From: Pelagibacteraceae bacterium AG-390-C22
GTDB taxonomy: Bacteria; Pseudomonadota; Alphaproteobacteria; Pelagibacterales; Pelagibacteraceae
Reading direction: 5' to 3'
Length of the DNA stretch: 64,000 bases
Assembly: GCA_003278125.1 (NCBI GenBank)
Contig: QCGX01000004.1
Span: 27,653-91,652 of the forward strand
Shown here: positions 13,806 through 16,600 of the stretch, in pieces
Numbering within the stretch: position 1 is the first letter of the stretch
Layout of the letters: each line of letters opens with the position of its first letter
The notes under the pieces: model-generated
Databases searched by the model: none
Told to the model about the DNA's origin: nothing
The model's input: only the letters and a program-made list of their open reading frames with translations
Position numbers and translations under genes: made by a program

Positions 13806-14456
13806 ATGAACATCATAGTTGAAAGATTTAATAAAATAAAATCGAATATATCTAAAATAGATAACGCCAATGCTTTGAAAATAATAGCAATTAGCAAAAC
13901 TTTCTCTTTGGACCATATAATGCCCTTAATTGAATTCGGTCACAATCATTTCGGCGAAAATAAAGTTCAGGAAGCAGACGCTAAGTGGCATAAAGTTAAA
14001 AAAGAAAAGAAAAACTTAAGATTACATATGGTAGGCAAATTACAAAGTAATAAGGCAAAAAAAGCAGTTCAAATATTTGACTACATTCATTCCCTCGAAA
14101 ACCAAAAACTGGCTGATACTTTATCTAAGTGTCAAAATGAAATAAACAAATCTATCAATTATTTTATTCAAGTAAATATTGGTAACGAATCTCAAAAAGC
14201 TGGCGTCAAATATAATGAAGTAGATCAGTTTTATAACTACTGCACTAGAGAAAAAAAAATGAATATTATAGGGTTAATGGCAATACCTCCAAATGATGAA
14301 AATACTGAAAAGTATTTCAAAAGCCTTTCAGAGTTAAATTCGTCATTAGGTCTTAAAGAACTTAGTATGGGCATGTCCTCTGATTACATGAAAGCTATTA
14401 ATTATAAAGCCACTTACCTAAGAATAGGTAGCGCGATATTTGGGGAAAGATCTTAA
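13806..14456 (+). CDS. YggS family pyridoxal-phosphate homeostasis protein
   Basis: IIAISKTF, FGENKVQEADAKW, HMVGKLQSNKAK, GLMAIPP, MGMSSDYMKAI, RIGSAIFGER. Confidence 0.95.
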   Translation: MNIIVERFNKIKSNISKIDNANALKIIAISKTFSLDHIMPLIEFGHNHFGENKVQEADAKWHKVKKEKKNLRLHMVGKLQSNKAKKAVQIFDYIHSLENQKLADTLSKCQNEINKSINYFIQVNIGNESQKAGVKYNEVDQFYNYCTREKKMNIIGLMAIPPNDENTEKYFKSLSELNSSLGLKELSMGMSSDYMKAINYKATYLRIGSAIFGERS

Positions 14457-14944
14457 ATTATATTTATAATTGTTTTTCTATTAATCCTTTTTAAAATTTC
14501 TTTTAAATCTTTTTTGCTCACAGCAATACATCCATTAGTTTTGTTATAATTTTTTTTTGCAACATGGATAAAGATAGCGCTTCCTTTATTTCTACGTATA
14601 GGATTTAGATTGAAGTTTAGAACTAAAATTATGTCGTAAGTATTATTAGTTTTATAAAGTTTTTCAAAATTATATTCAAAAGGCAATCTAATAAGTTTAT
14701 TATAAGACTTTGACTTAGGATCATCACACCATCCCATATCTTTACGAATAATTAATTTAGTTAATTTAGTCTTTAAATTGGGAATACGATCTTTTCTATA
14801 TAGTATATATTTAACTTTGAATTTTCCTCTAGGTGTAATCTGGTCTCCTTCTCTCTTTTTTCTACCAATTCCTCTTTTACCTGTAGAGCATTTTACTTTA
14901 TAATTATTGAAAAAGAGTTTTTTATTTTTTATTAGAATATGCAT
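14453..14944 (-). CDS. L,D-transpeptidase (YkuD) family protein
   Basis: FIHVAKKNYNKTNGCIAVSKKDL = YkuD H...GC motif; no obvious signal peptide. Confidence 0.85.
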   Translation of the reverse strand: MHILIKNKKLFFNNYKVKCSTGKRGIGRKKREGDQITPRGKFKVKYILYRKDRIPNLKTKLTKLIIRKDMGWCDDPKSKSYNKLIRLPFEYNFEKLYKTNNTYDIILVLNFNLNPIRRNKGSAIFIHVAKKNYNKTNGCIAVSKKDLKEILKRINRKTIINII

Positions 14945-15565
14945 ACAATTAATGTTTTAACTTTTGGTTCAAGAAATTTTAACACTTCGCTAGAAGAACT
15001 TAAAGATTATTTAAACTTTAAACTAACTTTCGCTGATAAAGAGATAAACAAAGAAACCTTAAATAATCACGATGTCTTAATTCTTCACCAAGATGGATTA
15101 TTAGGAGATTCTTTAGAAAAATTATTAAAAGATAGTAAAAAAATTAAGATTTTAGTCTCAAATAAAAGTGATAAAAAAAAAGATCAATTTAATGAAATCA
15201 TTTCTTTACCTCTTAAAATATCAGATCTCAATCAAATTGTAGAAAATGCGATCACGAAAAAAAATTTCAGCAAAAATTCATCTATATTAATTAAACAATA
15301 TAAGTTGGATAAAAATGAAAAAAAATTAATAAAAAATAAAAATTATATTTTGTTAACTGAAAAAGAGATACAACTTTTAGAGTTATTTTTAGACAACAAA
15401 AAACCTATCAGTAAAAACATAATTTTAAAAGAAGTTTGGAAGTATTCGACATCTGCAGATACCCATACTGTAGAAACGCATATTTATAGATTAAGAAAAA
15501 AGATAAAGTCTAAATTTTTAGATGAAAATTTTATCTTAAACAACAAAGATGGATATTTATTATGA
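14939..15565 (+). CDS. Orphan OmpR-type winged-helix protein with degenerate receiver-like N-domain
   Basis: C-term LTEKEIQLLELFLDNKKPISKNIILKEVWKY...HTVETHIYRLRKKI...NNKDGYLL (Trans_reg_C); N-domain lacks the usual acidic pocket. Confidence 0.8.
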   Translation: MHTINVLTFGSRNFNTSLEELKDYLNFKLTFADKEINKETLNNHDVLILHQDGLLGDSLEKLLKDSKKIKILVSNKSDKKKDQFNEIISLPLKISDLNQIVENAITKKNFSKNSSILIKQYKLDKNEKKLIKNKNYILLTEKEIQLLELFLDNKKPISKNIILKEVWKYSTSADTHTVETHIYRLRKKIKSKFLDENFILNNKDGYLL

Positions 15566-15669
15566 AGAAAAGAAATAAAATAGCTTTAGATTTATTTACT
15601 AATAAATATCGTAAACGTATCGTCAAACCAAAAAAAGGAAAAGGTAGTTTTAAAAGAAGAAAAAAATAA
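15562..15669 (+). CDS. arfA: ArfA-like alternative ribosome-rescue factor, 35 aa (not in ORF track)
   Basis: Hand translation MKKRNKIALDLFTNKYRKRIVKPKKGKGSFKRRKK*; resembles ArfA core ...ALL.DPLFRQRV.KNKKGKGSYxRK; ATGA overlap with upstream gene. Confidence 0.75.
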   Translation: MKKRNKIALDLFTNKYRKRIVKPKKGKGSFKRRKK

Positions 15670-15670
15670 T

Positions 15671-16600
15671 CTAATTAAGTCGAGCGCCAATTTTTTGAAT
15701 TATTTTCGACGACATTTCAGTACCTTTATTTAAACTTTCTTTAAGAGATAGATTGTTTACGTGACCATGTAGAAAACCTGCTGCAAATAGATCACCAGCA
15801 CCAGTTAAGTCTTTAATTTTAAGATTTTTTTGAGCTTTGCATTCAACAATTTCATCTCCTTTAATTGCGATTGCTCCTTTTTCACCTCTAGTAATAACTA
15901 ACAATTTTTTAATTTTTTTTGAAAATTCAATAACATTATTAAAATCTCTTGTATCTATTAAAGACATTATTTCTTGTTCATTAGCAAAAGCAATATGTAA
16001 TTTATTTTTAACCAAATTTAAAAAATGTGGCTTATGCCTTTCTACGCAGAACAAATCTGATAAAGACATTGCTACTTGATCAGAGTTTTCAATTGCTTTT
16101 TCAAAAGCCTTTTTTGGCTCTCCTTCATCCCAAAGATATCCTTCTAGAAATACAAGATCACTATTTTTCACTGAGTTAACATCTATATCATTCTCATTAA
16201 TTTTTCCTGCAGTTCCAAGGAATGTACACATAGTTCTCTCAGAGTCAGGAGTAATTAAAATCAAACAAGTGCCAGTAGGAATTGCTTCTTTTTTTTTAGA
16301 ATAAAAATATTTAACTTTCTCTTTTTTGAGTCCTACTTCGTACTTGGCGCCCAGCTCATCATCGCTTACTTTACCAATAAAACCTACTTTATTTCCTAGC
16401 TGAGAAAGACCTACAATTGAATTTGCAACTGAACCACCAGAAACTGTTTCTTCAATCCGAAGATTTGATAGTAATTTCTTAAACTCACTCTCATCCACAA
16501 GCTTCATAGTGCTTTTTGTTAATTTGTTATTAGTTAGAAAGTTTTCTTCTACTTTACAGATAACATCAACAATTGCATTTCCAATTCCTATAACTTTCAT
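15671..16600 (-). CDS. PfkB family carbohydrate/adenosine kinase
   Basis: GNAIVDVICKV, SGGSVANSIVGLSQLG, DLTGAGDLFAAGFLHG. Confidence 0.92.
   Translation of the reverse strand: MKVIGIGNAIVDVICKVEENFLTNNKLTKSTMKLVDESEFKKLLSNLRIEETVSGGSVANSIVGLSQLGNKVGFIGKVSDDELGAKYEVGLKKEKVKYFYSKKKEAIPTGTCLILITPDSERTMCTFLGTAGKINENDIDVNSVKNSDLVFLEGYLWDEGEPKKAFEKAIENSDQVAMSLSDLFCVERHKPHFLNLVKNKLHIAFANEQEIMSLIDTRDFNNVIEFSKKIKKLLVITRGEKGAIAIKGDEIVECKAQKNLKIKDLTGAGDLFAAGFLHGHVNNLSLKESLNKGTEMSSKIIQKIGARLN

Follow-up and report, generated by a model that had tools for sequence, protein, structure and literature searches.

A conserved 35-residue ArfA-like protein of SAR11 bacteria, probably a short form of the ribosome-rescue factor ArfA

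A small open reading frame at positions 15562-15669 of the DNA analysed here is a conserved gene under purifying selection, and its 35-residue product is homologous to the ribosome-rescue factor ArfA. On sequence comparison, this SAR11 gene and its phage counterparts very probably encode a stripped-down ArfA. It is highly likely that the product is a genuine short ArfA that escapes tmRNA feedback and has taken the back-up role of ArfB, its rescue activity being predicted. The gene lies in a 64-kb piece (the window, i.e. the whole stretch of DNA that was analysed) of a 1.04-Mb genome of SAR11 (Pelagibacteraceae), a group that ranks among the most abundant cell groups on Earth.

The gene, its locus and its conservation

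The features of the locus are the following:

14939-15565, plus strand: upstream gene of an OmpR-type winged-helix protein of 208 aa (PF00486; Trans_reg_C, 1.3e-14)
15562-15565, plus strand: ATGA start/stop overlap, candidate translational coupling (NTGA in 78 of the 80 named loci)
15562-15669, plus strand: arfA-like micro-ORF, 35 aa, TAA stop, product MKKRNKIALDLFTNKYRKRIVKPKKGKGSFKRRKK (by translation)
15607-15666, plus strand: codons of the conserved tail Y/F-R-x-R-[IV]-[IV]-K-P-K-K-G-K-G-S-[FY]-x-R (Pfam match and alignment to PDB ArfA)
15671-16600, minus strand: convergent PfkB-family sugar kinase (PF00294, 2.1e-42), a close convergence that recurs in relatives

The micro-ORF is real and its translation is exactly the one quoted in the preliminary description, which had also placed its start in an overlap with the preceding gene; indeed, the ATG of arfA overlaps the TGA of the winged-helix gene. 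Conservation of this overlap in related genomes had been proposed as a check, and NTGA is retained at nearly all the SAR11 loci with varying initiators (ATG 30, TTG 24, GTG 23, CTG 1). The overlap is therefore preserved although the start codon drifts, which is consistent with translational coupling.

The upstream winged-helix protein is as long as a complete response regulator but has no Pfam match to a receiver domain; the receiver half may therefore have degenerated. Its gene is divergent from that of a YkuD-type L,D-transpeptidase (14453-14944, minus strand), the two head-to-head start codons forming the palindrome ATGCAT at 14939-14944. This 6-base overlap, which recurs in most loci of the same genus and in some others examined, leaves no space for leaders or a promoter between the two genes. 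On the other side, the ends of arfA and of the PfkB kinase gene are one base apart (15669-15671), and elsewhere in SAR11 these ends can overlap, by as much as about 20 bases; transcripts of arfA thus probably extend into the kinase gene in antisense orientation. No RNA family was found by Rfam over the window and no NCBIfam family corresponds to the 35-aa ORF.

The gene occupies one conserved locus within SAR11. Matches to the window protein occur in 43 of 61 close genomes, and the PF03889 (ArfA) model matches 111 of the 147 sampled genomes of the family in a genome search (80 above the cut-off). Across the order, a SAR11 profile matches 213 of 297 genomes; for the better genomes, the count is 117 of 150. 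Eleven columns are invariant across 46 distinct SAR11 sequences, and 101 distinct SAR11 core sequences give a median dN/dS of 0.135 and a pooled pN/pS of 0.18. In the sister family f2, matches of the window protein are weak and fall in frames of 311-316 aa; profile search also yielded f2 candidates of 43-47 aa, which keep the front motif, lack KGKGS and were excluded from the ArfA count. Four complete or near-complete genomes of the family (G063, G077, G086 and G095) have no recognisable arfA copy and carry two GGQ proteins each; they may rely for rescue on tmRNA alone or on some factor not yet recognised.

Relatives in marine phages and in other Alphaproteobacteria

The assignment to ArfA is not entirely new, since gp30 of the pelagiphage HTVC027P, a close relative, is already annotated as ArfA and is reported to be expressed both early and late in infection (PMC12753301). 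The gp30 sequence NPVAKEVRTPKYKSQIIKPKKGRGSFKR aligns along the SAR11 protein, from which gp30 (58 aa) differs by an extra N-terminal stretch. At least 96 viral contigs encode relatives, and ArfA-like genes are widespread in marine ones (L148-L227). In one contig (L162), the gene directly follows a clamp loader gene and lies near a DNA polymerase gene, and in another (L161) genes for portal and head proteins are close by; this gene content identifies both as genuine phage loci. Some viral ArfA-like genes (L199, L212 and L227) have long C-terminal extensions. A tblastn search of phage records with the 35-aa protein gave no match, the query having probably been masked by the low-complexity filter.

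These viral relatives, some of them beside replication or head genes, and the expression of gp30 during infection raise the possibility that the SAR11 gene was captured from a phage, where it would have manipulated host translation. Such an origin would be compatible with an ArfA function. It is possible but rather doubtful: the gene is conserved at a single locus within SAR11, and about 30 aligned residues are too few to settle the direction of transfer.

Beyond SAR11 and phages, related sequences are sparse. Fifteen of 385 sampled Alphaproteobacteria match the SAR11 profile, three of them being SAR11. The other matches are scattered; several have a KGKGS-like tail and pass PF03889, and others, devoid of KGKGS, share the front motif only and have a KKxYxRK tail. 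The combination of the ArfA front motif, here RNPxAKxLRxPKYRxRV, with a KKxYxRK tail is seen in DUF7230 and its relatives, at L244, L245 and L247 (sister SAR11 genus), L258-L263 and L287. The homologue from the sister SAR11 genus scores exactly 27.0 bits against DUF7230 (PF23876), a Pfam family that the window protein does not match. A mixed profile of the KKxYxRK forms, which includes SAR11 sister sequences chosen by the analyst, retrieves solved ArfA chains from the PDB (E 0.0015) and reaches 96.7% against SAR11 ArfA but only 81.6% against gamma ArfA. A relationship between DUF7230 and ArfA may thus be proposed from these comparisons as a lead, not as a proof.

Homology with ArfA and the minimal core

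The proposal that the 35-aa product is ArfA-like, and the suggested search with the ArfA HMM, are borne out by Pfam, PDB and profile-profile matches, activity being predicted. The isolated window protein matches PF03889 with an E-value of 1.5e-5 and 24.8 bits, just under the curated cut-off of 25.5; the genome search, in which translation continues beyond the stop, gives the locus 26.4 bits, above that threshold. PF03889, and no other Pfam family, is matched by each of the 46 distinct SAR11 versions (E <= 1; best 3.1e-8). Against the PDB, the best match of the single window sequence is ArfA (E 0.014), and the SAR11 profile finds six ArfA sequences at 3e-6 to 8e-6, the next match being at 2.7. 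The modest scores of the single sequence (24.8 bits in Pfam; 0.014 in the PDB) reflect a very short and lysine-rich protein.

A profile built from gamma ArfA only gives the window ORF 26.6 bits and ranks it first among the 614 window ORFs of at least 20 aa, the second obtaining 7.2 bits. Genuine SAR11 sequences score 21.7-38.3 bits against this profile, whereas the best of 9,200 shuffled SAR11 versions obtains only 12.5 bits and reversed copies score below 0.

The homology extends beyond the basic tail into the front half of the protein. The alignment with PDB ArfA spans SAR11 residues 5-34, and hhalign aligns the SAR11 and gamma ArfA profiles over 31 columns, front half included (probability 97.2, E 2.9e-11). 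The Pfam match pairs window residues 16-35 with PF03889 positions 23-42, and the tail encoded by 15607-15666 corresponds, in the alignment to PDB ArfA, to about residues 25-44 of E. coli ArfA, i.e. the mRNA-channel segment. Each of the eight residues that never vary in the gamma set (N14, F25, K34, G35, K36, G37, S38 and R41) has a SAR11 counterpart (N5, Y16, K25, G26, K27, G28, S29 and R32), F25 being read as Y/F. E. coli ArfA (YhdL, PF03889) and its gamma relatives share with the SAR11 protein an N-x(10)-F/Y-R-x-R core and a KKGKGS[YF]xR tail.

Two points set the SAR11 gene apart from that of E. coli: the N-terminus resembles that of a short-N-terminus gamma family (f189), which we take to be Pseudomonas-like, rather than that of E. 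coli ArfA, and the hairpin typical of gamma arfA mRNA is lacking. The SAR11 protein begins eight or nine residues further in than E. coli ArfA, has neither its N-terminal extension nor its hydrophobic tail, and counts 35 aa against 72 (55-60 in structures). Replacement of A18 by threonine abolishes release by E. coli ArfA (PMC5378476); this alanine has no conserved SAR11 counterpart at the same ungapped position, since position 9 varies and the invariant alanine is A8; the f189 family likewise lacks it, having a serine there. In published structures, no more than about 46-48 residues of E. coli ArfA are modelled, and its activity does not require the last 17-18 residues of the protein (PMC8012679). 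With its end near the counterpart of residue 44, the SAR11 protein is close to this resolved core.

The short-N-terminus gamma ArfA, N-K-A-K-S-L-V-A-Q-P-L-F-R-S-R-x-x-x-P-K-K-G-K-G-S-Y, is a sequence bridge to the SAR11 form. Both share an N-K-x(6)-Q/N-P-L/K-F/Y-R core and a PKKGKGSY tail, but the f189 copies have an NWEAS-type tail and a hairpin, which the SAR11 copies lack.

This bridge bears on the idea that the SAR11 protein is a separately evolved factor, comparable to ArfT or BrfA, that acquired its KGKGS tail by convergence. ArfT of Francisella tularensis, a 40-aa protein with a KGKGS-like tail whose gene has no hairpin ahead of the stop codon, shows that an independent origin of such proteins is possible (PMC6299226), and the SAR11 N-terminus is unlike that of E. 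coli ArfA. Convergence is nevertheless unlikely: besides the bridging gamma form, the front part is also similar, N5, Y16, R17 and R19 aligning without gaps with N14, F25, R26 and R28 of E. coli ArfA. ArfT is devoid of clear ArfA homology and works with either RF1 or RF2 (PMC6299226).

Rescue factors, regulation and significance

Like cells carrying gamma ArfA, the source cell encodes both tmRNA and RF2. The search for tmRNA elsewhere in the genome, suggested in the preliminary description, reveals one of alphaproteobacterial type (3.7e-66). The RF2 of this genome is clear along its length (E. coli RF2 match, 1e-107), and V198, F217 and the strand 213-217, known as contacts of ArfA (PMC5378476), are identical to those of E. 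coli. RF2, rather than RF1, is the probable partner of the SAR11 protein. Between species, the compatibility of rescue factors can be poor (PMC6881298).

ArfB (YaeJ), the back-up rescue factor of Alphaproteobacteria, is a GGQ hydrolase unrelated in sequence to the SAR11 protein. In the source genome, the ArfB model gives only sub-cut-off cross-matches to RF1/RF2 and no ArfB above the cut-off. The GGQ domain (PF00472) has at most two matches in 146 of 147 SAR11 genomes, a fragmented one having three, and the GGQ-domain proteins among the matches listed are RF1- or RF2-sized; at most two matches are also found in family f2 of the same order. The 35-aa product itself carries no GGQ, the ArfB hallmark being a GGQ hydrolase domain of about 140 aa.

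Published surveys restrict ArfA to beta- and gamma-proteobacteria (PMC6881298), or add ten species of the Bacillus subtilis group and report ArfA in none of 2,376 Alphaproteobacteria, 2,022 of which have ArfB (PMC11633108). As Alphaproteobacteria generally have ArfB and lack ArfA (PMC11633108), SAR11, with ArfA and without ArfB, represents the reverse case. This pattern of presence and absence suggests that ArfB was replaced by ArfA in SAR11.

The retention of RF2 by cells devoid of ArfB also argues against a small basic peptide associated with ribosomes, involved in their assembly or hibernation and recruiting no release factor. The size and strong basicity of the 35-aa product would suit such a role, but Pfam and PDB give no match to any ribosomal or hibernation family and in the PDB only ArfA is significantly related, which makes this reading very improbable. 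As for a spurious ORF, arising because SAR11 DNA is AT-rich and its lysine codons frequent, conservation (dN/dS of about 0.14, the invariant columns and the shuffle controls) refutes it.

The regulation of arfA distinguishes SAR11 from gamma-proteobacteria. In E. coli, arfA is subject to an RNase III/tmRNA feedback (PMC3989581). A strong hairpin lies 3' of the core codons at every gamma arfA locus tested (mean z -3.97, 16 loci), whereas none is found at 30 SAR11 loci (mean z +0.39), where arfA terminates in an ordinary stop codon. A feedback of the E. coli type is thus impossible by that route, and SAR11 arfA does not reproduce the way in which the E. coli gene is regulated. The production of a non-stop mRNA through an RNase III hairpin or a terminator is, however, a regulatory trait and lies outside the definition of the ArfA protein family.

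The genuine short ArfA proposed here would act on ribosomes stalled at the end of a message devoid of stop codon. There, the empty mRNA channel would receive its basic tail, PKKGKGSFKRRKK, and the decoding centre would house its front part, RNKIALDLFTNKYRKR. Docked on this front part, RF2 would then release the nascent chain by cutting it. The protein would be translated by reinitiation downstream of the winged-helix regulator, free of tmRNA feedback, and would assume the back-up role that ArfB has in other Alphaproteobacteria.

The wider picture, in which arfA is a core gene of SAR11 that replaced ArfB, is free of tmRNA feedback, is common to pelagiphages and other marine phages and is tied to DUF7230, has about an even chance of being right as a whole. 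A conserved SAR11 arfA, together with the loss of ArfB and the absence of the feedback hairpin, changes the published map of ArfA distribution. The pelagiphage copies raise the question of why a phage would carry a rescue factor. If its link with ArfA is true, DUF7230, a family of unknown function, would also belong to ribosome rescue, with KKxYxRK as its own version of the channel tail. The preliminary description had seen in the 35-residue protein a near-minimal ArfA, and this protein is indeed predicted to be a natural near-minimal rescue factor.
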